A stretch of 64,000 nt of DNA from Stigmatella ashevillena (GTDB taxonomy: Bacteria > Myxococcota > Myxococcia > Myxococcales > Myxococcaceae), in contig NZ_JAQNDM010000002.1 in assembly GCF_028368975.1 (NCBI RefSeq), positions 310,001 to 374,000 of the forward strand. The letters run 5' to 3'. A model generated the notes under the pieces. The model was not told where the DNA came from. It did not search any database and was given only the letters and a program-made list of their open reading frames with translations. Positions 1 to 59,452 of this stretch are shown piece after piece. A program made the translations under genes and the position numbers. Positions within the stretch are counted from its first letter, which is position 1. Each line of letters opens with the position of its first letter.

Positions 1-2257
1 AGTCGGCGTGCGCCATCACCACCTGGTGGTGCTCGATCACGATGACCGACTTGCCGGAGTCGACCAGCCGGTCCAGCAGCCCGAGCAACTGCTCGAGGTC
101 GGCCAGATGCAGCCCGGTGGTCGGCTCGTCGAGCACGTAGACGCCGCCGTCGGTACCCATGTGCGTCGCGAGCTTGAGCCGCTGCCGCTCGCCACCCGAC
201 AGCGTGGTGAGGGGTTGGCCGAGCCGCAGGTAGCCGATCCCCACGTCGGCCATGCGCTGCAGGATCGCGTGCGCGGCCGGCGTACGCGCCTCACCGGTGC
301 CGAAGAAGCCGACCGCGTCTTCGACCGACAGGTCAAGCACCTCGGCGATGTTGAGCCCGCCGAGCCGGTAGTCCAACACCGACGCCTGGAACCGTCGACC
401 CTCGCACTCCTCGCAGACCGTGGTGACGCCGGCCATCATCCCCAGGTCGGTGTAGATGACCCCGGCGCCATTACAGGTCGGACAGGCCCCCTCGGAGTTG
501 GCGCTGAACAGTGCGGGCTTCACGCCGTTGGCCTTCGCGAACGCCTTGCGGATCGGCTCCAGCAGATCGGTGTACGTCGCCGGGTTGCTCCGCCGCGAGC
601 CCCGGATCGGAGTCTGGTCGACCGACACCACCCCGTCCCGGCCACACACCGAGCCGTGGATCAGTGAACTTTTGCCCGACCCGGCCACGCCGGTCACCAC
701 CACCAGCACCCCGAGCGGGATGTCGACCTTGACGTCCTTCAGGTTGTGGGTTCGGGCGCCGCGCACCTCCATCACACCCGACGGTGTCCTCACCGACGGC
801 TTCAGGGAGGTCCGGTCATTCAGGTGACGCCCGGTGAGAGAGCCGCTGGCCCGCAGCGCGTCAACGGTGCCCTCGAAAACCACTTCGCCGCCGGCTGTGC
901 CGGCGCCGGGGCCGAGGTCGACGACGTGGTCGGCGATCGCGATCACCTCCGGCTTGTGCTCGACCACGAGGACGGTGTTGCCCTTGTCGCGCAGCCGCAG
1001 CAGCAAGTCGTTCATCCGCTGAATGTCGTGCGGGTGCAGCCCGATCGTCGGCTCGTCGAACACGTAGGTCACGTCGGTGAGCGACGACCCGAGGTGTCGG
1101 ATCATCTTGGTGCGCTGCGCCTCGCCGCCCGACAGCGTCCCCGCCGACCGGTCGAGGCTGAGATAGCCCAGACCGATCTCCACGAACGAGTCGAGCGTCT
1201 GCTGCAACGTCGCCAGCAGCGGCGCGACGGACGGCTCGTCCAGACCGCGCACCCACTCGGCCAGCTCGTTGATCTGCATCGCACAGGCGTCGGCGATGTT
1301 GATCTTCTTGATCCTGGAGGACCGGGCGGCCTCGTTGAGCCGGGTGCCGCCGCACTCAGGACAAGCGGTGAACGTCACCGCCCGCTCGACGAACGCACGG
1401 ATGTGCGGCTGCAGCGCGTCGACGTCCTTGGACAGGAACGACTTCTGGAGCTTGGGGACCAAGCCCTCGTAGGTCATGTTGATGTTCTCGATCTTGACCT
1501 TGGTGGGCTCTCGATAGAGGAAGTCGTGGAGTTCCCGCTTGGTGTAGCGCCGGATCGGCTTGTCCGGGTCGAGGAAGCCCGAGGCCGTGAAGATGCGCAC
1601 CTGCCAGCCGTCGGCGTTGTAGCCCGGGATGGTGAGCGCGCCCTCGGCGAGCGACTTCGTGTCATCGTACAACTGGGACAGGTCGATATCGGTCACCGAG
1701 CCCATGCCTTCGCACCGCGGACACATGCCGCCAGCGACCGTGAACACGCGTTTCTCGGTCTTCTCGGCCTTCCCAGCGCCCTTCTCGATCGAGATCTGCC
1801 CTACCGCGCGGACCGATGGGACGTTGAAGGAGAAGGCGTTGGCAGAGCCGATGTGGGGTTTGCCGAGGCGACTGAAGACCACCCGCAGCAGCGCATTCGC
1901 GTCGGTGGCAGTGCCAACCGTCGAACGGGAGTTGGCGCCCATCCGCTCCTGGTCGACGATGATCGCGGTCGTCAGCCCTTCCAGGACGTCGACCTCGGGC
2001 CGGGCCTGCGTCGGCATGAACCCCTGCACGAACGCGCTGTAAGTCTCGTTGATCAGCCGCTGTGACTCCGCCGCGATGGTGCCGAACACCAGCGATGACT
2101 TGCCCGATCCCGAGACGCCAGTGAACACCGTCAGCCGCCGCTTGGGGAGCTCGACGCTCACATCCTTCAGGTTGTTCTCCCGGGCACCTTGAACGCGGAT
2201 CAGGTCGTGGCTGTCTGCGGGCTGCTGGCGAGAGGGCACTACCGGCAAGCGGCTCAT
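1..2257 (-). CDS. UvrA-like ABC ATPase (class II/UvrA2 type), partial at left edge
   Basis: The reverse strand is open from an ATG at 2257 through the left edge, about 752 codons. Two ABC ATPase halves are visible: Walker [10 protein letters not shown] near residue 50 and GVAGSGKSS in the second half, signature LSGGE twice, and Walker B-like YVFDEPT and YVLDEPT. CxxC pairs (CPRC, CPEC, CPTC, CEEC) match UvrA zinc modules. Between the first Walker A and the CPRC module there is only about 130 residues, so the UvrB-binding insertion of classical UvrA appears absent. This is typical of UvrA2/DrrC-like proteins linked to drug tolerance rather than core repair (family knowledge). The start overlaps the stop of the upstream AHSA1 gene as ATGA, indicating translational coupling. 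Probably only a few dozen C-terminal residues are missing. Confidence 0.9.
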
Positions 2258-2694
2258 GAGAGCCTCTCGAGCAGGTCGACGAGCTTCCCGCCCATCATCT
2301 TCCAGCCGTAGCGCGCGCCACCGAAGTTCTGCTTCTGGTCCGGCTTGAAGCCCGACTGCACGAGGGACAGGCGCGTGCCCGACGCCGTGGGCGTAAGCGT
2401 GAAGGTCACGACGGTGTCGAGGAAAGGGACGTTCCACGCGTAGCTGAGCTTCCGATGCGCTTCAATCTCGAGGATCCGGCAGTTCACGACGCCATCCCAC
2501 CCGGGGTACGGCTGCGTCTTGAACGTGAACGCGGCCCCCGACTCGAGCTTGAGTTCGACGACGGGCAGGAGCCACTCGGTGAGCAGCACGGGATCGGTGA
2601 GCGCGCGCCACACCTTCTGCGGCGAATGATTCAAATCAAATTCGAATGAAATGGATTCGGTTTGAGATGGGGCGGTGTTGTCGACGGGGTTCAT
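2254..2694 (-). CDS. SRPBCC / AHSA1-family protein
   Basis: A 146-residue soluble protein with the AHSA1 (START-like, SRPBCC) pattern: an N-terminal strand FEFDLNHSPQKVWRALTDP, then TEWLLP, and a C-terminal GGARYGWKMMGGKLVDLLERL helix. The length is normal for the family, which forms a hydrophobic-ligand-binding helix-grip fold. It overlaps the ArsR gene upstream by 4 nt and the UvrA-like gene downstream by 4 nt (ATGA), so all three are probably made from one message. ArsR-AHSA1 pairs are common in bacteria, but the ligand is unknown. Nothing is truncated or unusual. Confidence 0.85.
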   Translation of the reverse strand: MNPVDNTAPSQTESISFEFDLNHSPQKVWRALTDPVLLTEWLLPVVELKLESGAAFTFKTQPYPGWDGVVNCRILEIEAHRKLSYAWNVPFLDTVVTFTLTPTASGTRLSLVQSGFKPDQKQNFGGARYGWKMMGGKLVDLLERLS

Positions 2695-3020
2695 TCGTCC
2701 ATTTTCTCCAGCAGTTGTTCAAGGCGATCGACGTGCTCTGTCCAGAAGGCTCGGTAGTGCGCGATCCAGTCGATGAGCGGCTTCATCCCGCGTGGCTCCA
2801 CCCGGTAGTAGACACAGCGCCCGTCGCGCCGACCGTTCACCAGGCCGGCATCTTTCAAAGTGGCGAGATGCTGCGAAATCGCCGGCTGCGAGATGTCAAA
2901 GCGCGCCGTGAGGTCCTTCACCGCCGCTTCGCCGCGCGTGAGCGACTCGAAGATCGCCCGGCGGCTGGGATCCGCCAGTGCCTGGAAAATCTTGTTTTCG
3001 GCCACGGTCGCGCTCTGCAT
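2691..3020 (-). CDS. ArsR-family (winged-helix) transcriptional repressor
   Basis: 109 residues with the classical ArsR fold: an N-terminal FQALADPSRRAIFESL helix, the HTH core VKDLTARFDISQPAISQHLATLKDAG, and the wing VNGRRDGRCVYYRVEP. The CxC metal site of true arsenic sensors is absent, so it belongs to the metal-independent SdpR-like autorepressor branch often paired with AHSA1 genes. The start codon lies just downstream (in the transcribed direction) of a perfect 7-2-7 palindrome, the probable operator. It is the first gene of a coupled three-gene operon with AHSA1 and the UvrA-like ATPase. Confidence 0.9.
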   Translation of the reverse strand: MQSATVAENKIFQALADPSRRAIFESLTRGEAAVKDLTARFDISQPAISQHLATLKDAGLVNGRRDGRCVYYRVEPRGMKPLIDWIAHYRAFWTEHVDRLEQLLEKMDE

Positions 3021-3029
3021 GAGCGATAC

Positions 3030-3045
3030 ATAAGCACTTGCTTAT
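3030..3045. promoter_or_regulatory. Palindromic operator of the ArsR operon
   Basis: ATAAGCA-CT-TGCTTAT is a perfect inverted repeat with 7-bp arms and a 2-bp spacer, 9 bp upstream of the arsR start codon. Its AT-rich composition stands out in this GC-rich sequence. Position and symmetry fit an ArsR/SdpR dimer site for autorepression. The binding itself is inferred. Confidence 0.7.
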
Positions 3046-3085
3046 GGGTTGTCAAGCGCTCGGAGTCCGGCACCGCGCCCGGGCT

Positions 3086-3248
3086 TCACCCCAGGAAGGC
3101 GGCGATCTCGAACCATCCTTCGTCGATCACCTCGACCGAGATCGATCGCGTGGTTCGATCCACCTGCATCTGTCCAGCGCTTCGCCCCGACTTCCTCAAG
3201 CCTCGCGCGCAGCGGTGGCTCTGCCTCGTTGATGTCGTGCTCTTTCAT
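3086..3248 (-). pseudogene. Probable frameshifted small gene
   Basis: An ATG at 3248 has an excellent Shine-Dalgarno (GGAGGAAG, 7 nt away) and opens a plausible N-terminus (MKEHDINEAEPP, RARLEEVGAKRW). That frame then turns Arg-rich and implausible. The next frame from about 3170 reads naturally (RSISVEVIDEGWFEIAAFLG) to a stop at 3086. The simplest reading is one gene of about 50 codons broken by a frameshift around 3165-3175. I do not recognise the family. The rest of 3046-3362 holds only the leaders of arsR and of the TPR-CHAT gene. Confidence 0.35.
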
Positions 3249-3362
3249 CGTTGTGCTTCCTCCACTGTGACACTCGGCATCGAGCATAGCTTGCCCACTT
3301 GCACGAACGAGGGGATGGCTTGGATGATGGCGGGCGCTACGTCACCTCTTGGAGGGGAAGAG

Positions 3363-6300
3363 ATGCGTCAATTCTTCGATTGTCTGTTGGCCGTCTTCCT
3401 TTGCTGGGCATTCGCAGGACACGCCAGCGAGGCTCCGCTCGATGCTCGGCTGGCCGAGGCCCAGTCTCACTTCGACGAGGCATCCAGGCTCAGGGCCGCA
3501 GGCCAATATTCCAACGCCCTCCCTCGGATTGAACGTGCACTCGCACTCCGGGAGGCCGTGCTGGGGGAATCGCATCCCGATGTCGCCTCCTGCCTGATTC
3601 TGATGGGTGACATTCATTGGCAACAAGGAGACTTGGTTACGACCGAGCCTCTCTTTCTGCGTGCGCTCGCCATCCGCGAGGCCGCCTTTGGCAAGAGCCA
3701 TCCCGAGGTCGCCCAACCGCTCAACGGCCTCGCCTCCATATACATTGACCAGGGCCTGTATGACCAGGCTGAGCCCCTTTGCCTGCGCGCGATTGCCATT
3801 CAAGAAGCCGCTCCCAACGACAAACACCCCGGTTTTGCCCTCTCACTCAACAACCTCGCCAAGCTCTACCATGAACAGGGATTGTATGGCCAAGCCGAGC
3901 CCTTCTACCTGCGTGCACTGGCCATCCTGGATGCACCCCTCGGAAAGAGTCACCCCCACGTTGTCCTTCCTCTCACCAATCTCGCCACCCTCTACACGCA
4001 TCAGGGGGCGTACAGCCGCGCCGAGCCCCTCCTCCTGCGCGCACTCTCGATTCAGGAAGCCACACTCGGCAACAACCACCCCTCTCTCGTCATTACGCTC
4101 ATCAACCTCGGCAACCTCTATTCAAATCAAGGGCTTTACGACCGGGCCGAACCCCTTTTCTTGCGCTCACACTCTCTCGCGGAAACAGCTCTCGGCAAAA
4201 ACCACACCTCTGTCGCCACCGCTCTCAACAACCTCGCTGTCATTTATCAGGATCAAGGCCTTTATGACCGAGCTGTCCTCTCCTTACAGCGTGCGCTCGC
4301 CATCTGGGAGGCCTCTCTCGGCAGCCAGCACCCCGTGGTCGCCACCGCTCTCAGCAATCTCGCGGTTCTCTATTCCAATCAGGGATTGTACGACCAGGCG
4401 GAGGCCCTCTTGCAACGCGTCCTCTCCCTTTCGGAGACTGCCTTCGACAAACACCACCCTCTTATCGCCGAATCTCTCCACAACCTCGCCAATCTCTATT
4501 CTCTGCAAGGCTTGTACGCACAAGCCGAGCCTCTTCACCGCCGCGCACTCGCACTTCGAGAAGCCTCTCTCGGCCACTCTCACCCCCTCGTCGCTGCCTC
4601 CCTCCACAGCCTCGCGGTCCTCTACCAATCACGGGGCTTGTATGGCCGCGCAGCGCCTCTCCACCAGCGCTCGATCGCACTCCGCGAAGCCGCCTTTGGC
4701 CACGCTCACCCGGATGTCGCACTCTCCCTCAACCACCTCGCTCAGCTTCGTCTGGCACAGCATCGCCTCTCCGACGCCCTTCCTCTCCTCTCTCGCTCCT
4801 TCTCCATGTCCGAGCGCCGCCTTCGCCGTGAAGCCCTCGACTTCTCAGAATCCCGCCTCTCCTCCTTCCTCTCTCATCTCCGCTCTGACGAGCAACGGCT
4901 CTATTCCCTTCTCCGCGATCACCCTCGGGACGCCCGCGTTCAACGCCTCGCCCTCAGCGCCGCCCTTTTGCTCAAGGGCCGCTCTGTCTCAGAGACCGCA
5001 CACATCTCTCGTACCCTCTTGCTCAGCTTGAGTGCCGAAGACCGCGATTCCTTCGAGCGCCTGCGCAGCCTTCGCACTCAACTGGCCTCCCTCTCCTTCT
5101 CGGGCCCAGGCGATCTCTCCCCTGAGGCCTATCAGCAACGCCTCCAATCTTTCGCCCTGGAGGGCGACTCCCTCGAGACGGAACTCGCCAAACGCTCCGC
5201 TCCCCTTCGCGCTCTCTCCTCTCTTCCTTCCCCTGACGACATTGTCCACCGCGTCGCCTCCTCCCTCCCCAAGGACTCCGCTCTCGTCGAATTCATCGCC
5301 TACAAAGACAGCCCCCTCCTTCCCTCTCCCGACACCGCCTCCCGGATGCGCTACCTGGCACTGGTCCTCTTCCCCAATTCCTCCATCCGCTCCGTGGACC
5401 TGGGACCCTCTTCTCCCATTGACCTTGCCGCTTCTCGCCTTCGCGATGCTCTGGCTGACCAAGACGCCTCTTTCCAATCCTCTTCCCAGGAACTCTACCG
5501 GCGCGCCTTCCTCCCTCTCCTTCCCCTGCTCGGCTCCACCCGCCGCCTCTTCCTTTCTCCTGACAGCCAGTTGAACCTCGTCCCCTTTTCCGCACTCCAC
5601 GACGGCCACGCCTTCCTCCTGGACTCCTTCGACTTCTCCTATCTGACCTCCGGCCGGGAACTGCTGCCTCGCCCCCAGGACCTCATCCCCTCCTCTTCCA
5701 TCTTCGTCCTCGCCGACCCTGACTTCGCTGCTCCTTCTCCCGCCCCGCCTCCCGGTGCCCCTCCTTCCCCCACACGCTCTCCGCTTCCAAACTCCCTCCA
5801 GCGCTTCTTTTCGACGCCTCACCTGGATGTGCTCAGAGAGGCCTGGGTGTCCCTGCCAGGCACTCGCTTGGAGGCCCAAGCCATTCAGCGCCTGCTTCCT
5901 CAGGCTCAGCTCTTTCTGGGCTCAGACGCCTCCAAAGAAAGACTTCTGGACCTGCCCACCCCGGGCATTCTCCATCTGGCCACCCATGGCTTTTTCCTCG
6001 GCAATTCTCCCTCCTCACCTGATTCCCGGGGCTTGGCCTTCGTCGATTCCCTGGGCGGTCCTCCTGCCCCCCAGCAGGAGCCTTTGCTCAACTCCGGCCT
6101 CGTCCTCTCCGGCGCTCTGTCCTCGGCTCCTGACGCCTCTTCTCTCCGTTCCGAGGCTTCTCTCGTCACCGCTTTGGAACTGGCTGGGCTCAACCTCTGG
6201 GGCACTCAGCTCGTTGTCCTTTCCGCCTGCGACACGGGCCGCGGCGAGATCCACCTCGGTCAGGGCGTCTTCGGCCTTCGCCGCGCCCTCGTGGCCGCTG

Positions 6301-28338: not shown

Positions 28339-29652
28339 CTACGGCTTCACGTATCGGCCGAGGAAGAGCACGGTCTTCGTTTCCGCATCCTCGATGAGGA
28401 AGAGAAAGGGCCGGTTCACGGTGAGTGGCTCGGGCACGGACGGGGGCCCCACGATGACCGCCGTGGCCGCCGCTGCTTCGGTGCCCTTCTCATCCACGGC
28501 GACGAAGGCCTTGTGCTCCACGCGCGCGATGGCCAGGGCCTCCTGGGTGGTCAGGCCCGAGAAATCGGCCCTGTCCGAGAACGCATCGGTCATCCCCAGC
28601 GCCTTAAGCGTAGCGGCCAGGGAGAAATCCTTCTCCACCTGGAAGCGAGGAAAGCCGAGGGCCACGTAGCGGTTCACCAGGGCGCCCCGGACCTCGGACA
28701 GGAAGGCCGCCGAGAGCCGGGATTCGATCTCCGCGAACCGCCCTTGCTGGGGAACGATGAGCAGCATGCGGTAGGTGTTCTTTATGTAGGGCAGGCCCAC
28801 TGCCTCGAAGCCCTCTCCCTGCATGTAGTCGACCCCGCCACTGCGGTTCATCATCTGAACCTGCTGCGTGCTTCCATCCAGCAAGGTGAACGGGGCGGCA
28901 CGGGTCGCCGTAGGAATGAACGGTGAGGCCCACGCGCCCTTGAAATAGAGCGCGTTGACCAGCAGAAGACGCGTGCTGCTCTCCACCGAGCCCACCGGAA
29001 GCAGATCCTTGATGCGGCCTTCCGTCTGGTTCTTCACCCACTCGTTGATGGCGTCGCGGATGGCCGAGGCCTGGGTGGTGAAGTCCACCACGCGCATGCC
29101 ATTGCCATAATAGAGCGCCAGCACATCGAGGAACGCGGGCACGAAGGAGAAGCCCTTCTGGCTCCAGGTGGCGTTCACCAGGCGCAGAAAGGTCGGCGTG
29201 CCCTGTCCTCCCACCGTCGCGTCCGCCTGGGCCTGAAGCTTCAGGTTCAGCGCATTGGAGGCAGGGTGAAGCCGTGCCTGGGGCAGCGAGACGTGAAGGG
29301 TCTCGGCCATCTCGGCCTCGGTGTTGCCACGGGCGCCCGTGTACACCATGGACAATGCCTGGGTGATGCTGAACGGCGAGAAGAAGAGGTTCTCTCCGGG
29401 TTTGGCAATCTTCCGGTACAGGGACGCGCCAAAGTCGGTGTTCCCGGTGACGAGCTCGGCGATGTCCTGGGCAGGCACATCGGGGGTGGTCACCCGCTCC
29501 TTGCCCGAGGAGACATACTCACCCAGCGAGTCTGTCTCGCCTGGAGATTCGGACGCTGGCCTCCCCTCCTCTGGATTCTCGGCCTCAGAGCAGTGCGCGA
29601 GTGCCATGGCGGCGGTGAACAGGGGGACGAGCCACCTTCGGGATGAAGTCAT
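28339..29652 (-). CDS. Serpin-family protease inhibitor, lipoprotein
   Basis: 437 residues; ATG with AGGAG 6 nt upstream. The signal ends in the lipobox ALAHC, giving a surface lipoprotein, then an acidic linker of about 50 residues. The rest is a full serpin: FSPFSITQALSMVYTGARGNT, NATWSQKGFSF, LLLVNALYFKGAW, and the C-terminal VNRPFLFLIEDAETKTVLFLGR. The reactive-loop hinge VDEKGTEAAAATAV has the Gly, Thr/Glu and Ala run of inhibitory serpins, so it should trap a serine or cysteine protease. The P1 residue cannot be fixed by eye; the loop continues VIVGPPSVPE. Confidence 0.93.
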   Translation of the reverse strand: MTSSRRWLVPLFTAAMALAHCSEAENPEEGRPASESPGETDSLGEYVSSGKERVTTPDVPAQDIAELVTGNTDFGASLYRKIAKPGENLFFSPFSITQALSMVYTGARGNTEAEMAETLHVSLPQARLHPASNALNLKLQAQADATVGGQGTPTFLRLVNATWSQKGFSFVPAFLDVLALYYGNGMRVVDFTTQASAIRDAINEWVKNQTEGRIKDLLPVGSVESSTRLLLVNALYFKGAWASPFIPTATRAAPFTLLDGSTQQVQMMNRSGGVDYMQGEGFEAVGLPYIKNTYRMLLIVPQQGRFAEIESRLSAAFLSEVRGALVNRYVALGFPRFQVEKDFSLAATLKALGMTDAFSDRADFSGLTTQEALAIARVEHKAFVAVDEKGTEAAAATAVIVGPPSVPEPLTVNRPFLFLIEDAETKTVLFLGRYVKP

Positions 29653-29718
29653 TCCTTGCTCCTGACAGCGAGTTTCCGCCATCAGGAAGCAATTGGCATG
29701 CTCACTCGCAGTCTCAGT

Positions 29719-32918: not shown

Positions 32919-33917
32919 TCACTCTTCCTTCGCCAGCGTATCCACCTGCTCCTGGATGTCGGCCGTCTCCTGGAAGAACTCCTCCAGGGTCGAGGCAGGC
33001 ACCAGCCGCAGCGATGACGGCAACAAGGTGCGAGGGAAATCCAGCGCGGTGCTGAACCCCTCGTTGCCCAGCAGCTCCTGCGCTTGGACGAGCGTACCAA
33101 AGCCCAGCACGACGACGCCCACCCCCGCACCCAACCGCCGTGAATCCCAGCGCGTCACATACCGCAGGTGCCAGAACAGACACCATGTCAGCAACACCGA
33201 GTAGCCGAGCAAGCTCAACCACTGGATGCTCCCGCCCAGAGAGAGACTGAATCCCAGCACAGTGAGGATTCCCGGCGTACAGACGAATCCCAGCAACGTC
33301 AGGCTGCCGATCGCGCCGTGGGCCCGGAAGTAGAATTGTCGGCGGGCGATCCGGCTCGCGATGGACCAGGCCCCCGCCCAGAAGAGGGAGAGCGTCGCGG
33401 GAAGGAGCACGGCGTACACCAGCTCGCCCCAGTCCGTCTTGTCGTAGCTCGTCAGGTATTCGGACAGCGCCGACGCCACCAGCGCCGACACGAGCGCCGC
33501 CATGAAGAGCGGGGGTTGCTCGAAGAAGCGTCGGCGCGGAACCACGGGCGCCTCGGACACCCAGGTGGTCTCCACCGCGTGGTTCTGGCCCCTGAACCGC
33601 AGCACCGTGTCCCCCACCGCCACGCGGGCGCCGGGGGTGAGCATCAGCTCGGCCAGCGGCGCCCAGGGCTCCAGCCGGAAGGTCCCATTGCGGCTGCCCA
33701 CATCCCGTACCAGGAACCCGCCGCTCTCGGTGCGCTCGATGCGCAGGTGTTTCGTGGAGACCTTGGGATCATCGAGGATGACGTCATTGGTGTAGCCCCG
33801 CCCCACCGTGACGGGAAAGCGCTCCAAGCGGTGGCGCGATTGGACGGCGTCCCCCTCCAAGACCTCCAGGAAGAGCACGTCTTCGTTCAGGACTGCTCCT
33901 AAGGTCACCGCATCCAC
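32919..33917 (-). CDS. FHA-domain membrane protein
   Basis: 332 residues. The N-terminal FHA domain (about residues 30-110) has the phosphothreonine-reading residues VGRGYTND, STKH and SRNGTF. Then come about five transmembrane helices (MAALVSALVASAL, VYAVLLPATLSLFWAGA, GSLTLLGFVCTPGILTVLG, WLSLLGYSVLLTWCLF, VGVVVLGFGTLV) and a short acidic C-terminal tail. The domain should bind a phospho-Thr partner on the cytosolic face; Ser/Thr kinases are encoded nearby. Its start overlaps the upstream protease gene by 13 nt, indicating coupled translation. Confidence 0.85.
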   Translation of the reverse strand: MDAVTLGAVLNEDVLFLEVLEGDAVQSRHRLERFPVTVGRGYTNDVILDDPKVSTKHLRIERTESGGFLVRDVGSRNGTFRLEPWAPLAELMLTPGARVAVGDTVLRFRGQNHAVETTWVSEAPVVPRRRFFEQPPLFMAALVSALVASALSEYLTSYDKTDWGELVYAVLLPATLSLFWAGAWSIASRIARRQFYFRAHGAIGSLTLLGFVCTPGILTVLGFSLSLGGSIQWLSLLGYSVLLTWCLFWHLRYVTRWDSRRLGAGVGVVVLGFGTLVQAQELLGNEGFSTALDFPRTLLPSSLRLVPASTLEEFFQETADIQEQVDTLAKEE

Positions 33918-35269
33918 GACATTCCCTCCAGGTAGCGGCGGGCGAGCCGTTGGGCGTTCTCCGGCGAGAAGCCGGCCAGGGTCAGGCTGGTGTCCACCCC
34001 TTGGGTGCCCGAGGGGAGCGCCGCGGCCCGGAGCACCAGATCATAGATGCCGGGGAACTTCTTGTAGGCCCGCAGGCACAGCGCAGCCCGCAGGGTCAGC
34101 CCTCCCGAATCCACGAACTCCGAGCGGCACCGGAAGTTCGTCACGTCGTCGCGCGTGGCCTCCACGAGCATCGGATCCGAGGAGAAGATCTCTTCATAGA
34201 GGGTCGCGAAGCGCAGGATGCTCAGCTTCGTCGAGGAGACGTATTGGTGGACATAGGAGACCACTCCGGTGCGGTGCGCGGAGGTCAGGAACAGATCTTC
34301 CTCGGAGGAACACTGGTAGTTCGTCACCGAGTAGGGCCGCTCGGCGTCGTGGGGGGTATCGCCCCAGCACTTGAGAAAGGGCAACCACCGGCCAGGGACC
34401 TGGTAGGCCCCGAGGGTCTGGGGAGGCAGGGGGGTGGCCATCAGGTGATCGGTGACACGTTGCTGGTGCTCGAAGATCTGGGTGCGGACCGAGTCGAACA
34501 GGGCCTCCTGGGAGGGGCCCTCCGCTAAACGCTCGCGGGCGCGTGTCAGAAGTGCCCGGGCATGCTCCACCGGGACCAGGAAGCCCACCTGGTTGCCCAT
34601 GGTGGCCACGTTGACGCCCACCACGCGGCCTTCTCCCGTGAGGGTGGGCCCACCGCTCATGCCCGGATTGATGGCCCCGCTGAAGTGGACACGATCATAG
34701 AGGGCGTCCTGAACGAGGCCGTTGTAGGTCCCCTCGACAATGGTGGTCCCCAGGTCTCGCGGATTGCCCATGGCGAACAGGCGCGTGCCTTGCGGCGGAG
34801 GGCGCTCTTCCAGGGCGAAGAAATCCGCCATCCGCTGCTCGAACCGGACCACCGCCAGGTCATGCACCACATCCACGTCGATCAGCCGCACCGGGACGGC
34901 CTGCTGCCCATCCCGGACCAGCTCGGCGGTGTAGTCCTCCGGGTGGAACACGAGGTCCGAGACGACATGGTAGTTGGTGATGGCATGCCCCTCGGCGCTC
35001 ACGAAGAAGGCGGAGCCGATGGAGGACTTGGTGCCCGAGCGGCGCTCGATGATGCGCACCTGGGCCACCCGGCGCTTGATGCGCTCGAACAGCTCATGCG
35101 TTGCGGGAGGAAGCGAGGCCACCGGCAGCGGGGGCACGGGCTCCTGGGAATCTCCTGCCCCTGGTGAGGGCTCCAGCGTCTGCTCCGGAAGGACCGAGGA
35201 ATCCGGCTCACGGGGGGGAATGGGCACCGGCACCTGGGCAAGCGTGGCGAGGACGAGAAGGGCGAGCAT
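33905..35269 (-). CDS. Exported trypsin-like (HtrA-type) serine protease
   Basis: 454 residues with an N-terminal signal (MLALLVLATLAQVPVP) and a Pro-rich linker. The protease domain has the triad His in AITNYHVVSD, Asp in HDLAVVRFE and Ser in INPGMSGGPTL, with the typical RLFAMGNPRDLGTTIVEG between them. There is no PDZ domain; instead about 190 C-terminal residues with several Cys (CWGDTPHD, YQCSSEEDLF, FRCRSEF, ALCLRAYKKFPG) form an unrecognised module. It heads the operon with the FHA protein and the ELWxxDGT lipoprotein and is divergent from a secreted protein gene. Confidence 0.9.
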   Translation of the reverse strand: MLALLVLATLAQVPVPIPPREPDSSVLPEQTLEPSPGAGDSQEPVPPLPVASLPPATHELFERIKRRVAQVRIIERRSGTKSSIGSAFFVSAEGHAITNYHVVSDLVFHPEDYTAELVRDGQQAVPVRLIDVDVVHDLAVVRFEQRMADFFALEERPPPQGTRLFAMGNPRDLGTTIVEGTYNGLVQDALYDRVHFSGAINPGMSGGPTLTGEGRVVGVNVATMGNQVGFLVPVEHARALLTRARERLAEGPSQEALFDSVRTQIFEHQQRVTDHLMATPLPPQTLGAYQVPGRWLPFLKCWGDTPHDAERPYSVTNYQCSSEEDLFLTSAHRTGVVSYVHQYVSSTKLSILRFATLYEEIFSSDPMLVEATRDDVTNFRCRSEFVDSGGLTLRAALCLRAYKKFPGIYDLVLRAAALPSGTQGVDTSLTLAGFSPENAQRLARRYLEGMSWMR

Positions 35270-36249: not shown

Positions 36250-36315
36250 ATTCGCCGCCGAATCGACTTGGGCCCTTGCCCGAGCGTTGAGCAACCGACC
36301 ACCCGGAGAGCTGTC

Positions 36316-39300
36316 GTGGGGACTTACCGGATCATCCGAAGACTGGCCGTGGGTGGAATGGCCGAGGTCTTCCTCGGCAAGATGGTGGGAGCCGAGGGTT
36401 TCGAGAAGCCCGTGGCCGTCAAGCGCATCCTGCCCTCCTTCGGGCAGGACGAGGCGTTCATCCACTTGTTCCTGCGCGAGGCCAAGGTCTCCGTGGCGCT
36501 CCAGCACGCCAATGTCGTGCAAGTGATGGATCTGGGGGCGGTCAAAGGCCAGTACTACATGGTCATGGAGTTCGTGGATGGGGAGAACCTCCGCGCCCTC
36601 CTCAAGGCCGCGCGTGCGCGCCAGCTCTCGCTGGGACTGCGCGAGGTGTGCTTCATCACCCAGCAGGTGGCCGATGGGCTCGCCTATGCCCATTCCCGCC
36701 TGGATTCCACCGGCGCACCGCTCAACATTGTCCACCGGGACGTCAATCCCTCCAATGTGATGGTGTGTGGCAATGGTGAAGTCAAACTCGCCGACTTCGG
36801 CATCGCCAAGGTCGCCGACGGTCACCAGGAGACCCAGGCGGGCGTGCTCAAGGGGAAGATCAACTATCTGTCTCCGGAGCAAGTGCTCAGCAAGCCGGTG
36901 GACAAACGCAGCGACATCTTCCTGCTCGGTCTGCTTCTGCACGAGTTGCTCGCGGGAAAGCAGCTGCTTCAGGGCACGCAATTGCAGATCGTCCAGCAGT
37001 TGGGCACGTTCAATGAGCGCGCGCTCGAGCCCATCCCGGGGGTTCCCGGCCCCTTGTGGAGCATCCTCCAGCGCGCCCTGGCCTTCTCCCCGGCGGCGCG
37101 CTTCCGCACCGCCAACGAGTTCTCCGAAGCCCTCCAGAGCTTCCTTTTCGATCACCGGCTGCGGGTGGGGACCGCCGACATCGCCGCGCTCTTCAGCCGG
37201 GCCTTCCCCGGGCGGCGCTCGCCGCTGGAGGATCTGGCCGGCGCTCGGGGCGAGGAGATCCACCTGGACAGCCGGGAGACGCCCCGTGCCTCGGCTCCGC
37301 CCGTTCTCCGTCCTGATGTGCGAGGCCCCAGCACCCCTGCTCCTGTTCAGACCGCCGTGCTGCGCACGACCCCGGTTCCCATCGCAAGCCCGGGGCGGGC
37401 CCCGCCTGCGCCTCCCGCGGGACGCTCCCCCCCGGAGCCGCCCACCCGCGTGGTACCCGGTGGGGAGCCCCTACCCGTTTCTCCGCAGCTTCGGGCCACA
37501 GGCCGGCAGCACCGTGTCGGCCGCCGCATCGGCGACATTCTCCTGGCAAGGGGGGTGCTGACTTCCGAGCAGTTGGAGGAAGCCCTGACCCTTCAGAAGC
37601 GCTTGGGCGGAAAGCTGGGCCAGGTGTTGCTGGGGGCGCGGTTGGTGGAGGCGGAGGAACTGGTCCGGGCGCTCTCCGAACAGTGTGGCCTGCCCCACAT
37701 CTCTGGAGAGCGGCTCCAGACGATGCAGGTCCCGGCGGAACTGATGCGGCTGTTGCCCATGGAGTTGTGCGAGAAGCTCTGCGCGGTCCCGGTGGCCCAG
37801 CGCAACCGGGAGCTCTACTTCGCCGTGCTGGAGCCGCGTGACCTCAAGGTCATGGATGCGTTGAAGTTCGCCACCGGCACCATCTCGGTGCATGGCCTGT
37901 TCGCGGCCGAGGCCGCCATCCGCCGGGCCATCCGGCGCTTCTACCTGGGCGACGAGGCCGCTGAGGTCGAAGAGAAGAGCGAGACGGCCCTCAACCGTGA
38001 ACGTGTCCTGAACTTCGTGGAGCGCTTCACCGGCCGCACCATGGTCAACCTCGATCTGGAGCTCGAGCCGTCCGAGGAGCCCGTCCCCGCGCCGCCCAAG
38101 CCCCCTCCGGCGCTCACGCCGCCCCCGGTGCCCACCCTCCCGGCGCGCGCCCTCTCCTCGTCCGGGAGCAGTTCGCGGGCCCGCATGGTGCTGGTGGTGG
38201 GTGATGCGCCCGAGGCCGCCGGCATCGCCGTGACGCTGCTTCTCCAGCAGGGCATCGCGGCGGCCGAGAGCCGATCGAGCACCGCCGAGAAGGCCCTGGC
38301 CCTCGGTGGGTATGATCTGGTGCTGGTGTTGGAGGACGCGGTGGTGGATCCCCCGGCGGTCGCCGCACGGCTGCGCGCCGCGTACCCCGGAATGGGCGTG
38401 CGTTCCATGCCCTCGCTGAGCGCGGCGCTTCTCGGCGAGGGAGGGCCGCTGGCGCGGCTGCTGACGGTCCACGCCCGGATGCTCGAGAGCGCCGTGGCGA
38501 TGATGGGCGGCAGCGCCATGATGGCCCCTTTCCTGGTGAAGCTCGCGCGACGTTGTGCGGTGCGGCTGGGGGCGGGCAGCGTCGAGGAGAGCCTCGCCGG
38601 TGTCGCAGCGGCGGCGCTCGCGCTGGGCGCGAGGATGGAGGAGTCCTCACACTTCGTTCTCCCCTCGCTGGCGCGCGTCCACTCCCTGGTGGGCCACGAT
38701 CTGCCGGAGGTGGCGGAGCTGCTGACGGCGGTGCTGTCCGGGGGGGCCGAGGCCGGTCCTCCCGCGGACCGGCTGGCCCTGGCCGTGCTGGCCGCGACGG
38801 CCTTCGTCCTCCAGACCCAGAGTGCCCAACCCACCCCCACGGAGGCCATCGAAGCCCTGCTGGCGCTGCGCAAGAGCTCGCGGTTGACCCCCGCGGCCCT
38901 CGAGGCGCTGGCCCAGGAGCTGGGCACGGGCACCGAGGGGCCCCACAGCGCGGCCCCCCGCGTGGTGGTGGTGGACAACGACTTGAGCACGGCCCTGGCG
39001 CTCCAGCTGCGCCTCATGGCCGATGGCCTCGGGATGAAGCGCGTCCGCACCCTGGCCGAAGTCGAGCAGGCCCTGGGAGGCGCCCATGCCGCCATCCTGG
39101 AGGCGCCCCTTCCGGATGGAGATGTGCACACCCTCATCCGCACGCTGCGGGCCACGCCCGCCACGGCCCACCTGCCCTTGTTCCTGATCGTTCCGCGCGA
39201 GGATCCTGCCGGGGTGATGATGGGCATCGATGCGGGCGCGGACGACGTGCTCGTGCGGCCCGTGAACGTGGAAGTCCTGATGGCGAAGCTGCGCCGGGCG

Positions 39301-39348
39301 ATTGCCCAGCAACATGCCGTCCAGCGCGCGGGGGGGCCTCATTCCTGA
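36316..39348 (+). CDS. Ser/Thr kinase-MshEN-pseudoreceiver fusion protein
   Basis: 1010 residues from a GTG with GGAGAG 5 nt upstream; a TTG 48 nt earlier is less likely. The Hanks kinase domain (residues 4-275) is complete: glycine loop RLAVGGMAEVF, Lys36 in VAVKR, HRDVNPSN with Asp142, and DFG at 160. After a Pro-rich linker, residues 402-545 form an MshEN/GSPII_E_N domain (IGDILLARGVLTSEQLEEAL), a module known to bind c-di-GMP in some proteins. Two receiver-like domains follow. In the last one the phospho-acceptor Asp is replaced (AILEAPLPDGD). No membrane span. It may integrate c-di-GMP level and protein phosphorylation (inference). Confidence 0.85.
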   Translation: MGTYRIIRRLAVGGMAEVFLGKMVGAEGFEKPVAVKRILPSFGQDEAFIHLFLREAKVSVALQHANVVQVMDLGAVKGQYYMVMEFVDGENLRALLKAARARQLSLGLREVCFITQQVADGLAYAHSRLDSTGAPLNIVHRDVNPSNVMVCGNGEVKLADFGIAKVADGHQETQAGVLKGKINYLSPEQVLSKPVDKRSDIFLLGLLLHELLAGKQLLQGTQLQIVQQLGTFNERALEPIPGVPGPLWSILQRALAFSPAARFRTANEFSEALQSFLFDHRLRVGTADIAALFSRAFPGRRSPLEDLAGARGEEIHLDSRETPRASAPPVLRPDVRGPSTPAPVQTAVLRTTPVPIASPGRAPPAPPAGRSPPEPPTRVVPGGEPLPVSPQLRATGRQHRVGRRIGDILLARGVLTSEQLEEALTLQKRLGGKLGQVLLGARLVEAEELVRALSEQCGLPHISGERLQTMQVPAELMRLLPMELCEKLCAVPVAQRNRELYFAVLEPRDLKVMDALKFATGTISVHGLFAAEAAIRRAIRRFYLGDEAAEVEEKSETALNRERVLNFVERFTGRTMVNLDLELEPSEEPVPAPPKPPPALTPPPVPTLPARALSSSGSSSRARMVLVVGDAPEAAGIAVTLLLQQGIAAAESRSSTAEKALALGGYDLVLVLEDAVVDPPAVAARLRAAYPGMGVRSMPSLSAALLGEGGPLARLLTVHARMLESAVAMMGGSAMMAPFLVKLARRCAVRLGAGSVEESLAGVAAAALALGARMEESSHFVLPSLARVHSLVGHDLPEVAELLTAVLSGGAEAGPPADRLALAVLAATAFVLQTQSAQPTPTEAIEALLALRKSSRLTPAALEALAQELGTGTEGPHSAAPRVVVVDNDLSTALALQLRLMADGLGMKRVRTLAEVEQALGGAHAAILEAPLPDGDVHTLIRTLRATPATAHLPLFLIVPREDPAGVMMGIDAGADDVLVRPVNVEVLMAKLRRAIAQQHAVQRAGGPHS

Positions 39349-43380: not shown

Positions 43381-43399
43381 GTGGGGACCCTTGCACACG

Positions 43400-45241
43400 A
43401 TGACGCTCGTAGGCCGCCAGATCGGTCGCTACCGCATCCTTGAGCAACTGGGCTCGGGGGGCATGAGCGTCGTGTACAAGGGGCTGGACACCGCCCTGGA
43501 CCGGGAAGTGGCGGTGAAGGTGCTGCACCCGCACCTGGCCGGCAAGGACGAGTCCCGGAAGCGCCTGGCCCGCGAGGCCCGGGCGGTTGCGCGGCTGCAC
43601 CACCCCAACATCCTGGAGGTCTTCGACTTCTCCGCAGCCGATGCGCAGAACGCCTATATCGTTACCGAGTACATCCGCGGCCATACCCTGCGGCAGTACC
43701 TGGACGAGGGGGGTCTGGAGCCGCCCGAGATCGCCGCGATGATCATCCACGAGCTGGCCGCGGCGCTCGCCCACGCGCACGAGTCCGGTGTCATTCACCG
43801 CGACCTCAAGCCCGAGAACGTCATGGTCCGCGAGGACGGCGTCCTCAAGCTGATGGACTTCGGCATCGCCAAGCTCCTGGAGACCGAGGAGCGGATGACC
43901 GTGACCGGGACCCTGGTCGGCTCGCCCGCGCACATGGCCCCCGAGATCATCGAAGGGCTGGAGGCAGGCCCCGAGGCGGACGTCTTTTCGCTGGGCATCA
44001 TGCTCTATGCCTTCGTCACCGGCCGACTGCCCTTCACCGCGCCCAACACGACGGCCACCCTCAAGCGCATCCTCGATGGCACCTATGAGGATCCCCGGCG
44101 CCGGGTGAGCGCGCTGTCGGACGAGTTGGCGGAGATCATCGCCACCTGTCTGGCCCGCGACCGCCACCACCGGTACCCGCACGCGGGGCGCCTCCGGGAC
44201 GCGCTCGCCGACTACCTCGCCGGGCTGGGGTTCCCGCGCGTCGGAGAAGAGCTGGCCTCCTTCTTCGCGGATCCCCCTTCCTATAAGAAGACCACCCGCC
44301 AGCGCCTCGTCGCGGCGCTGCTGGAGCGGGGGGAGCGTTTCCTCACCGAGAAGCGGACGCCCCGGGCCCTGGCCAGCCTCAACCAGGTGCTCGCCCTGGA
44401 CGCGCAGAACGCCCAGGCCCTGGCGATGCTCGAAGGGTTCAACCGGGCCCGGCGCCGCCAGCTCTGGGTGAAGCGGAGCCTCCAGGCAGGCGTGGTGCTG
44501 ACGGTCTGCGCGGCGCTCGGCACGGGCGGGTACCTGCTCTTGCGCCAGCTCCCCCCACCGCCCGTTCCCGTGATGCCCGTGCAGGAGGCCCCCCTGCCCC
44601 CGGCGGATGCGCCCCCGCTGGAAATCCCCACGCGCGCGCCCTTGCCCCTGCCGGACGCAACCCCGCTCGCGCCCCCGCTTCCGGAGCCGGTGGAGGGCCC
44701 TGCCGCAGTCCAGAAGAAAGCCCCGGTCCGGCCTCCCGAGCCCCCCGCGTCTCCCGACGGCAAGCCCGAAGCCCATCGGCCCGCGAAGGTGCACGTCTCC
44801 ATCCTCGTGCGCCCCTATGGCGCCATCCAGGTGGACGACACGCAGCCCAGCCCGCAGCCCCTCGCCCAGCATGATCTCCAGCTGGCCCCTGGCCCGCACA
44901 CCGTCACCGTGCGGTGCGAGTGGTGCGAGGACGCCGTGGACACCATCCAGGTGGCGCCGGATGCGGACAACGTCTTCCGGCTGCGGGCCCTGCTCAAGGG
45001 CTCACGGCTCTCCTTCGATTACCAACCCTCCGAGGCGCAGGTCCGCGTGGGCGAGGAGCTGCGCACCGCGCGAGAAACCCTGGAGCACCCATTCGATATC
45101 CAATCGCCCCGCGGACCGGCGAGCTTCCAACACCGCGTGGAGTACGAGGTGAGCCATCCCGGCTACAGGACGGAGAAGCGCGCGGTGATGGTGGAGCCGG
45201 GCAAGCCCATCACCTTGCGCGGGAGCCTCGTCGCCGAATGA
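43400..45241 (+). CDS. Membrane Ser/Thr protein kinase, Pkn4-like
   Basis: 613 residues. The Hanks kinase domain occupies residues 10-275: glycine loop LGSGGMSVVYKG, VAVKVL, HRDLKPENVMV, DFGIAKL and GSPAHMAPEI, all catalytic residues intact. A TPR-like segment, one transmembrane helix (AGVVLTVCAALGTGGYLLL) and a Pro-rich stretch follow. A periplasmic C-terminal domain of about 160 residues with PEGA-like beta repeats ends the protein. The pfk remnant directly upstream supports a Pkn4 assignment, since Pkn4 of M. xanthus phosphorylates PFK. It is first in a five-gene operon and its stop overlaps the next start (ATGA). Confidence 0.85.
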   Translation: MTLVGRQIGRYRILEQLGSGGMSVVYKGLDTALDREVAVKVLHPHLAGKDESRKRLAREARAVARLHHPNILEVFDFSAADAQNAYIVTEYIRGHTLRQYLDEGGLEPPEIAAMIIHELAAALAHAHESGVIHRDLKPENVMVREDGVLKLMDFGIAKLLETEERMTVTGTLVGSPAHMAPEIIEGLEAGPEADVFSLGIMLYAFVTGRLPFTAPNTTATLKRILDGTYEDPRRRVSALSDELAEIIATCLARDRHHRYPHAGRLRDALADYLAGLGFPRVGEELASFFADPPSYKKTTRQRLVAALLERGERFLTEKRTPRALASLNQVLALDAQNAQALAMLEGFNRARRRQLWVKRSLQAGVVLTVCAALGTGGYLLLRQLPPPPVPVMPVQEAPLPPADAPPLEIPTRAPLPLPDATPLAPPLPEPVEGPAAVQKKAPVRPPEPPASPDGKPEAHRPAKVHVSILVRPYGAIQVDDTQPSPQPLAQHDLQLAPGPHTVTVRCEWCEDAVDTIQVAPDADNVFRLRALLKGSRLSFDYQPSEAQVRVGEELRTARETLEHPFDIQSPRGPASFQHRVEYEVSHPGYRTEKRAVMVEPGKPITLRGSLVAE

Positions 45242-58573: not shown

Positions 58574-59452
58574 TCAGCCGCAGACGCGGTTGCGGCCCGT
58601 GTTCTTCGCCTCGTAGAGCTTCTCATCCGCGGCGCGCACCAGCTCCGAGGGCTCGCGGTGCTCGGGCAGCAGCGTCGCGATTCCCAGCGAGATCGTCACC
58701 GAGATGGTGTGCTTGTCGAACACGAAGTGCGCCTGCTCCACCATCTGGCGCACCTTCTCCGCGAACAGCCACGTGCCCTTGGCGTCGACTTCCGGGAGGA
58801 GAATTCCAAACTCCTCACCCCCGTAGCGCGCGAAGACATCCTCTCTCCGGATGTTCACGCTCACCGTGGAGGCCAGGTGCTTGAGCACGTAGTCCCCCGC
58901 CAGGTGCCCGCGCTTGTCGTTGATGTGCTTGAAGTGATCGACGTCGAACATCACCAGCGACAGCACCCGCTCGTAGCGTCGGCTCCGGGAGACTTCACGA
59001 TCGAGCTGCTCGTCGAAGTAGCGCCGGTTGTGCACCTGCGTCAGCCCGTCCATCGTCGTCAGGCGGTAGATCTCATCGTGGTACGCCGCCTCGATGTTCC
59101 CCCCCGCGATGAACTTGAAGATCGTCCGGCCGATCTTCACCAGATCTCCATTGCGCAGCTCTTGCGCGCTCTTCACCGCATCGTCATTGACGAACGTGCC
59201 GTTGGTGGAGCCCAGGTCCTGGATGAACACACCCTTGACCGTGTTGGTGATGCGCGCGTGGTTGCGGCTGACCGACTCTTGATCCAACGAGATGTCCGAC
59301 TTGGACGAGCGGCCAATCAGGATTTCGCTCCGGCCCAAGTCGTACTTGTGCCCCAGATCCAAGCCGTAGATGACGACGAGCGCCGCGTCCAGATTGACCG
59401 GACGATCGGAGATCTTCGAGATGAGCGTGACGACGGTCTCTCTCTGCGCCAT
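58574..59452 (-). CDS. FHA-GGDEF diguanylate cyclase
   Basis: 292 residues. An FHA domain (residues 38-115) has IGRSSKSD, SRNHARI and STNGTF. The GGDEF domain follows, with TxxDGLTxxHNRRYF and the active-site loop ARYGGEEF (211-215). The inhibitory I-site RxxD is present as RRED at 202-205, so product feedback is likely. It should make c-di-GMP from GTP under control of a phosphothreonine partner. There is no membrane span. Nearby Ser/Thr kinases and the MshEN fusion make a c-di-GMP/phosphorylation link plausible (inference). Confidence 0.93.
   Translation of the reverse strand: MAQRETVVTLISKISDRPVNLDAALVVIYGLDLGHKYDLGRSEILIGRSSKSDISLDQESVSRNHARITNTVKGVFIQDLGSTNGTFVNDDAVKSAQELRNGDLVKIGRTIFKFIAGGNIEAAYHDEIYRLTTMDGLTQVHNRRYFDEQLDREVSRSRRYERVLSLVMFDVDHFKHINDKRGHLAGDYVLKHLASTVSVNIRREDVFARYGGEEFGILLPEVDAKGTWLFAEKVRQMVEQAHFVFDKHTISVTISLGIATLLPEHREPSELVRAADEKLYEAKNTGRNRVCG

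Follow-up and report, generated by a model that had tools for sequence, protein, structure and literature searches.

A candidate c-di-GMP-gated Ser/Thr kinase with an MshEN domain and degenerate receiver and HD-GYP-like domains in Stigmatella ashevillena

Introduction

Serine/threonine (Ser/Thr) kinases are very numerous in myxobacteria. Motility and development of Myxococcus xanthus are controlled by cyclic dimeric guanosine monophosphate (c-di-GMP), and the Ser/Thr kinase Pkn1 of this organism is important for development (PMC8316039, PMC8844925). The MshEN domain binds c-di-GMP through a motif present in two copies, for which an RLG start, a turn glycine, leucine triads and a final glutamine were derived from structures and mutants (PMC5013675). 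In the same article, receiver (REC), HD-GYP and Ser/Thr kinase domains are each listed as partners of MshEN (Wang et al., 2016), so that fusions of MshEN and a Ser/Thr kinase are not new as such. Here, we describe the gene at positions 36316-39348 of a window of 64,000 nucleotides from Stigmatella ashevillena (contig NZ_JAQNDM010000002.1, positions 310,001 to 374,000), which encodes a protein of 1010 amino acids with a Ser/Thr kinase, an MshEN domain and three degenerate domains. The best reading of this protein is a cytosolic Ser/Thr kinase whose activity would be set by c-di-GMP; judged from the sequence, we give it a probability of about 0.55.

The published MshEN motif tolerates some variation. 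Position 1 was widened to Arg, Lys or Leu, and a domain devoid of arginine at this position (Lys and Leu) bound the ligand with a dissociation constant (KD) of 6 nM, and for a domain in which one position 1 is Pro, the KD was approximately 500 nM (PMC11731258). For the GSPII-A domain of PilF, measurable binding was restored in a trimmed domain by three changes (Gln in both motifs and Arg in motif II); Gly at position 3 was needed for high affinity, and Ile in place of Leu was tolerated (PMC12002112). The acidic contact represented by D108 of MshE was described as dispensable (PMC5013675).

Results

The MshEN domain and its putative c-di-GMP contact residues

The MshEN domain of the 36316-39348 protein was detected by Pfam (residues 458-548, E 2e-18, above the cut-off), and its c-di-GMP motif by NCBIfam NF053729 (residues 404-456, 53.6 bits vs. 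a cut-off of 38). This part of the protein also matches the chains of PilF, PilB and MshE by sequence (best E 1e-33). As is characteristic of MshEN, two motifs of 24 residues each (404-427 and 433-456) are separated by a spacer of five residues. The ligand contacts are present in both motifs, namely R404/K433, G406/G435, Q427/Q456 and the triads I405/L420/L424 and L434/L449/L453. The acidic contact of the C-subdomain (D108 of MshE, D266 of PilF) corresponds to Glu506, which was placed through alignment to the MshE and PilF chains.

Conservation was counted in 29 orthologue rows, comprising the 36316-39348 protein and the loci L041-L068; 18 rows belong to type A and 11 to type B. From the underlying 30 loci, L040 (the 36316-39348 locus itself) and L069 (a fragment of 257 amino acids) were omitted. 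Second copies in the genomes G000, G037, G038 and G041 as well as short fragments lie outside the count, and the comparison of the kinase-level relatives L012-L021 (of 21 loci) covered the length of the open reading frame (ORF) of eight. Gly3 and Gln24 of both motifs are invariant in all 29 rows. Position 1 of motif II is Lys or Arg, the triad positions are Leu, Ile or Val, and the position of Glu506 is Asp or Glu (29/29 each). Position 1 of motif I is Arg in the S. ashevillena protein; Pro (3/29) and Gln (12/29) also occur among the orthologues. The turn glycine (position 10) is present in motif I (Gly413) and replaced in motif II (Arg442), so that only one of the two motifs carries it. The sensor pocket contacts are thus kept in 29/29 rows, while the phosphorylatable Asp of the C-terminal receiver is lost in 29/29, a combination that argues for c-di-GMP gating. 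In an earlier note on this DNA, missing MshEN ligand contacts or intact acidic receiver pockets had been named as grounds for giving up a c-di-GMP-gated kinase; the contacts proved to be present and conserved, and the pocket of the C-terminal receiver is gone.

Several observations weigh against c-di-GMP gating. The turn glycine of motif II is replaced by Arg or Lys in all 18 type-A rows (Gly in 11/11 type-B rows), Gln stands at position 1 of motif I in 12 of the 18 type-A rows, and the literature passages considered contain no measured binder with Arg or Lys at the turn or with Gln at position 1 of motif I. MshEN homologues that do not bind c-di-GMP have been described (XpsE, PMC5013675; PilF GSPII-A, PMC12002112), and restored motifs alone were insufficient in GSPII-A (PMC12002112). 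The link between MshEN and the kinase is seen solely as a covalent one, and the gene is patchily distributed (29 of the 96 family genomes). Finally, the ratio of nonsynonymous to synonymous substitutions (dN/dS; simple Nei-Gojobori counts without error bars, nine pairs) of the MshEN C-subdomain ranges from 0.03 to 0.76, the highest value coming from one pair with low dS.

The replacements in both motifs and the existence of nonbinding relatives would also fit an MshEN domain that no longer binds. Such a domain and the three degenerate ones would together serve as a structural platform or as a docking site for partners, for example secretion or pilus machines, and the kinase would be regulated by other means. 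The branch leading to the type-A MshEN clade has a length of 0.55, and the kinase Pkn1, whose PilZ domain is predicted to lack c-di-GMP binding, would be a precedent. However, the retention of Gly3 and Gln24, of a basic first residue in motif II and of the triads in 29/29 rows is unexpected for a disused pocket, and we consider such a loss of binding doubtful, if worth keeping in view.

The kinase domain and the gene start

All residues expected of a Hanks-type Ser/Thr kinase are present, that is, the Lys (K36), the Glu of the alphaC helix (E55), the HRD Asp (H140-R-D142), the Asn (N147), the DFG Asp (D160-F-G) and the APE-type Glu (S-P-E188), along with Thr173 in the activation loop. The Pfam Pkinase match covers residues 5-228 (E 3e-35, above the cut-off), and the description of the kinase as intact in the earlier note holds. 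Since part of the kinase is cut off in some orthologue loci, conservation refers to those of the 29 rows that have a letter at the respective position; Asp142 is kept in 18/18, Asp160 in 25/25, Thr173 in 27/27 and Glu188 in 27/27. The Gly-rich loop (LAVGGMAEVF) is atypical compared with the textbook pattern and is equally so in the translated orthologues. From its residues, the kinase apparently works. Hydropathy revealed no transmembrane stretch (highest mean over 19 residues 1.77, at 625-643 in receiver 1), and the protein appears to be soluble and cytosolic.

The ORF is located on the forward strand and is uninterrupted from the GTG at 36316 to the stop codon at 39348. A longer version could start at a TTG at 36268, but the GTG start is plausible because the orthologue alignments begin at the matching position (VGTYRI or ATYRL). 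Two Pro-rich linkers separate the kinase from MshEN and MshEN from the C-terminal half.

Two degenerate receivers

The C-terminal half (residues 616-1010) was modeled with AlphaFold2 using ten rows (mean predicted local distance difference test score (pLDDT) 82, predicted template modeling score (pTM) 0.65). The top 50 Foldseek and VIA rows of this model were receivers and receiver-containing proteins such as PleD, apart from one VIA row for USP11. Receiver 2, at the C terminus, has a receiver fold (Z 19.6, 1.4 Å over 119 residues vs. TorR), and the Pfam Response_reg match at 883-992 (E 2e-4) lies below its cut-off. Its active-site positions (DD/D/T/K) are occupied by D887, N888, E929, V959 and R981, of which only D887 is the canonical residue, and the domain does not qualify as a phosphorylatable receiver. 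E929 stands at the active-site position of the phospho-acceptor, and the motif AILEAPLP therefore carries Glu instead of the phospho-Asp, whose loss had been noted earlier and extends to 29/29 rows. Among pseudo-receivers, it is common for the second DD position to be replaced by Asn, D by Glu and K by Arg (PMC12632262), and by its sequence receiver 2 fits that article's definition of a pseudo-receiver or Asp-less receiver.

The receiver origin of residues 624-705 (receiver 1) is real by profile, with a match to canonical receivers of 80% probability (P 1.4e-5), obtained with a comparison profile of only two canonical receivers, both from the 64-kb window. The model comprises four strands and is devoid of the fifth strand, which bears the Lys, and of the first Asp of the DD pair (Gly, Ser or Ala in 29/29 rows). 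The phospho-Asp position is ambiguous; without gaps it falls on L672, and an insertion of two residues would move it to D674, which 27/29 rows have. Five beta-alpha units and five active-site residues are consequently not found in this domain. Of the two dead receivers proposed earlier, receiver 2 is firmly dead and receiver 1 only likely so.

A predicted HD-GYP-like domain between the receivers

For residues 640-880, Pfam returned nothing but a chance-level VWA row (E 0.24). Because the model of the whole C-terminal half returned receiver-type rows, the middle domain (residues 706-875) was modeled alone with AlphaFold2 (pLDDT 87, pTM 0.85; four of the five models 81.5-87.0, one poor at 47.5). 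The top five Foldseek matches were HD-GYP chains of DvhD (probability 1.00, E 0.02-0.05, TM 0.60-0.63 on the query), with further matches to Bd1817, PA4781 and a trinuclear HD-GYP; no match of this model reached E 0.001. VIA likewise ranked DvhD first (Z 13.0, 161 residues, 4.1 Å), one of whose entries is c-di-GMP-bound, followed by Bd1817, PgpH, the trinuclear HD-GYP, V-cGAP3 and PA4781 (Z 11.3-9.7). The ten best VIA rows represent these six proteins, all of which are HD-GYP or related HD domains. As helical bundles can reach Z values under approximately 13 by chance and 13.0 alone is borderline, the assignment rests on the ranking, the helix order and a weak profile test, of which the structural evidence counted most; sequence profiles alone had at first given no support.

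In the profile test, hhalign gave a probability of 0.1% against six HD-GYPs of the same genome (with a profile that included the wrongly extracted row L077) and of 0.8% against 34 general myxobacterial HD-GYPs (P 0.07; score 17.7 vs. 17.5 for the best of 300 shuffles). Against a set of 14 rows, 13 of which belong to the MshEN-HD-GYP-REC subfamily and one of which (L124) does not, the probability was 14.7% (P 0.0018). The score of 27.35 was reached by none of 300 column shuffles (best 22.8), and the reversed profile scored 12.7; rotations stayed above 27 in 11 of 14 cases, so that most of the score stems from one local segment. With receiver 2 included, the comparison with the 14 rows rose to 98% (E 7e-14), the receiver dominating the score.

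The GYP motif is absent from all 29 rows. An HD pair (H794-D795) is seen solely in the 36316-39348 protein, where it lies off the motif helix; the other 28 rows have no such pair. The profile alignment, which contains a gap here, brings the invariant E775 close to the HD position. The domain is thus predicted from the model to have the helical HD-GYP-like fold without the catalytic HD and GYP motifs. The earlier note had listed a kinase, an MshEN domain and two receiver-like domains, all of which were found, and had missed the domain between the receivers.

Alongside MshEN, this domain could act as a sensor for c-di-GMP or another nucleotide, so that the kinase would read two sites. The resemblance to DvhD, including the c-di-GMP-bound entry, would suit such a role, as would the comparison with the nearest relative, L041, in which residues 706-875 are the most conserved segment of the compared part (97% identity, dN/dS 0.05). 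However, the catalytic motifs are gone, the domain is not the most conserved one everywhere (83% identity in the pair L047-L048, below both receivers), and conservation may equally reflect packing. We regard a second sensor as quite improbable.

Relatives, phylogeny and selection

With the C-terminal 385 amino acids as query, near-full-length matches were obtained in the 29 family genomes mentioned above. In 145 genomes of the order (E 1e-20), 31 matched, all of them from the family of the source organism. The domain layout is common to subfamilies with 42-45% identity in the C-terminal half.

The genome of S. ashevillena contains 18 MshEN matches. In the MshEN trees, 12 kinase-linked rows formed one clade (fork 99/100) apart from the other MshENs used, and the separation from the MshEN-HD-GYP group was supported by 100/100. 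The kinase-linked clade consists of the type-A clade and the rest, and the S. ashevillena genome has one of each. The trees do not include L124 and L127, L084 was entered as L038, and in the second tree five rows from the same genome were dropped, all flagged as long-branched in the first. These trees do not support the idea, also considered, that the C-terminal half descends from MXAN_2807-like proteins (MshEN-HD-GYP-REC-DUF4388). The S. ashevillena copy of that subfamily (L038/L084, contig C2 near 1489-1491 kb) has an altered GYP half, with YEAYDGSG compared to HQERWDGAG in the HD-GYP protein L081 of the same genome.

Kinase-MshEN fusions were surveyed in 16 chosen genomes, and four of the matches were examined. 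A paralogue in the S. ashevillena genome (L076, C2:4456500-4464000) combines a kinase with a motif-bearing MshEN domain and matches a receiver at its C terminus; receiver 1 is apparently missing. Outside the family, L158 (genome G096, 1053-3437), from another family of the order, encodes TPR-like repeats (read from the sequence, not a Pfam match), an MshEN domain and then a C-terminal kinase; its MshEN falls inside the kinase-linked clade (97/98, on a long branch). Shortened relatives also occur. L071 and L073 have Pfam matches for kinase and MshEN and, by alignment, the HD-like part, and no receivers; L072 stops after the HD-like part. In the genus of Archangium lansinium, L075 and L078 are worn kinase copies with the HD-like part and no Pfam MshEN match, the kinase match of L078 being below the cut-off. 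In genome G033, an amidohydrolase gene is preceded in frame by a remnant (L070) that resembles part of the kinase and part of the HD-like domain.

The receiver-less L071 and L073, the stop in L072 and the worn copies L075 and L078 would be in line with multidomain drift, that is, a kinase trailing decaying and functionless remnants of a REC-HD-GYP-like protein. This is hard to reconcile with dN/dS values below 0.4 for each of the three domains in 9/9 pairs (HD-like domain 0.05-0.32, receiver 2 0.06-0.26, receiver 1 0.04-0.39) or with the layout common to the subfamilies, and we consider drift very unlikely. The MshEN N-subdomain has values of 0.09-0.33 and the linkers of 0.09-0.61; linker 1 exceeds the kinase C-lobe in 8/9 pairs. 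Hence, domains of the c-di-GMP and two-component type look kept under selection after the loss of catalysis.

Genomic neighborhood

The features of the gene are compiled in Table 1.

Table 1. Positions of the gene and its domains in the 64,000-nucleotide window
Feature	Position	Strand	Basis
Whole gene: kinase - MshEN - pseudo-REC - pseudo-HD-GYP - pseudo-REC, 1010 amino acids	36316..39348	+	ORF and orthologue alignment
Hanks-type Ser/Thr kinase, approximately residues 5-279, catalytic residues present	36328..37152	+	PF00069, residues, conservation
Thr173, activation loop, candidate autophosphorylation site	36832..36834	+	Conservation
Pro-rich linker 1, residues 280-400	37153..37515	+	dN/dS
MshEN (GSPII_E_N), residues 404-548	37525..37959	+	PF05157; PilF/PilB/MshE chain matches
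Putative c-di-GMP motif I, residues 404-427 (R-I-G ... Q)	37525..37596	+	NF053729, alignment
Putative c-di-GMP motif II, residues 433-456 (K-L-G ... Q; Arg442 at turn Gly)	37612..37683	+	Alignment
Truncated pseudo-receiver 1, residues 624-705, four strands	38185..38430	+	AlphaFold2 model; profile match to two canonical receivers
Predicted HD-GYP-like helical domain without catalytic motifs, residues 706-875	38431..38940	+	AlphaFold2, Foldseek, VIA, profiles, motif check
Pseudo-receiver 2, residues 881-1000; Glu929 (39100-39102) for phospho-Asp	38956..39315	+	TorR structural match, Pfam, alignment

An FHA-GGDEF protein is encoded at 58574-59452 on the reverse strand; its translation contains GGEEF and an RxxD motif, which we take to be the I-site. 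The suggestion that this cyclase closes a feedback loop with the kinase was rejected, since linkage and co-occurrence both fail and the genome contains 16 GGDEF matches, this protein included. Orthologues of the cyclase were found in 20/20 chosen genomes (73-100% identity) and the kinase, in some cases only in its type-B form, in 18 of these. In the other two (G062 and G018), the search with the C-terminal half of the kinase gave receiver-level matches only. Among the 18 genomes, cyclase and kinase are approximately 20 kb apart in four, which are the closest relatives (G000, G036, G037 and G038), on the same contig at a distance of at least 1.8 Mb in ten, and on different contigs in four drafts.

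An operon or a conserved neighborhood was not supported either. In a comparison by BLASTP (E 1e-15; ORFs of at least 110 amino acids, flanks of up to 6 kb, kinase-to-kinase matches set aside), neighbors were common only to L001 (Hyalangium versicolor), and none were common with L002-L009. The gene adjoining the kinase (32919-35269, reverse strand) encodes an FHA protein with a sub-threshold MFS match and overlaps a gene for a trypsin-like protease. It is conserved in the Hyalangium locus L001 and lies far nearer to the kinase than the FHA-GGDEF gene at 58574. A second Ser/Thr kinase gene is located 4 kb downstream (43391-45241, forward strand; Pfam E 2e-58), and a full-length bacterial serpin is encoded at 28339-29682 on the reverse strand (Pfam E 6e-107).

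Discussion

From the domains and residues seen in the sequence and the models, we infer ligand binding, coupling, autophosphorylation at Thr173 and a scaffold role of the degenerate domains as parts of a c-di-GMP-gated kinase. One c-di-GMP molecule would bind both MshEN motifs. In the published response of PilF GSPII-B, a helical turn unwinds and two subdomains reorient; an equivalent change in the MshEN domain may move the pseudo-domains of the C-terminal half with respect to the kinase, which would permit or block autophosphorylation of Thr173 and phosphorylation of substrates. The three pseudo-domains could form a dimerization, autoinhibitory or docking scaffold, for which ShkA of Caulobacter offers a precedent, and by analogy with ShkA we favor relief of autoinhibition as the effect of c-di-GMP.

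If this holds true, a small molecule, c-di-GMP, would switch protein phosphorylation on or off. The protein is a concrete and apparently soluble candidate for such a kinase. Its sensor pocket and its degenerate domains are defined, and c-di-GMP gating is therefore testable with one purified protein. In the open-licence literature, represented mostly by titles and the openings of abstracts, we found no Ser/Thr kinase for which switching by c-di-GMP had been demonstrated and no description of the HD-GYP-like domain, the five-domain layout or the contrast between a kept sensor and a lost receiver. A more far-reaching claim, which we consider unlikely, is that this protein is the first Hanks-type Ser/Thr kinase gated directly by c-di-GMP, combining kinase and MshEN with a dead pseudo-REC/pseudo-HD-GYP/pseudo-REC array whose HD-GYP fold would act as a second ligand sensor or an autoinhibitory part.

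With MshE of Vibrio cholerae and PilF of Thermus, the protein shares the two 24-residue motifs, the five-residue spacer and the retained contacts. It differs from proteins of this type in the absence of an ATPase domain, the N-terminal kinase, the additional pseudo-REC and pseudo-HD-GYP domains and the replaced turn glycine of motif II. The MXAN_2807-like proteins, with which L084 is equated on the basis of common domains rather than a direct comparison, likewise unite MshEN and HD-GYP with a degenerate receiver-like part in a single polypeptide. Their profile similarity to the HD-like domain is weak and becomes strong once receiver 2 is included. Unlike the 36316-39348 protein, they possess the HD dipeptide and have no kinase, and the MshEN trees keep the two groups apart. 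Bd1817 of Bdellovibrio resembles the middle domain in its HD-GYP fold and in an incomplete motif (HDG"Y"P according to the entry titles); the similarity amounts to Z 11.3 only, measured against a predicted model, and Bd1817 is not known to have a kinase context.

Pkn1 is the nearest myxobacterial comparison, being a Ser/Thr kinase with a c-di-GMP receptor-type domain, which in Pkn1 is a PilZ domain predicted to be nonbinding instead of MshEN (PMC8316039, PMC8844925). The nearest mechanistic precedent is ShkA, a kinase with a pseudo-receiver in which c-di-GMP lifts the autoinhibition exerted by the C-terminal receiver (PMC7010744). ShkA differs in being a hybrid histidine kinase and in that the ligand docks on its pseudo-receiver itself and not on an MshEN domain. 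The site in ShkA is formed by beta5-alpha5, a part that receiver 1 of the 36316-39348 protein does not have.

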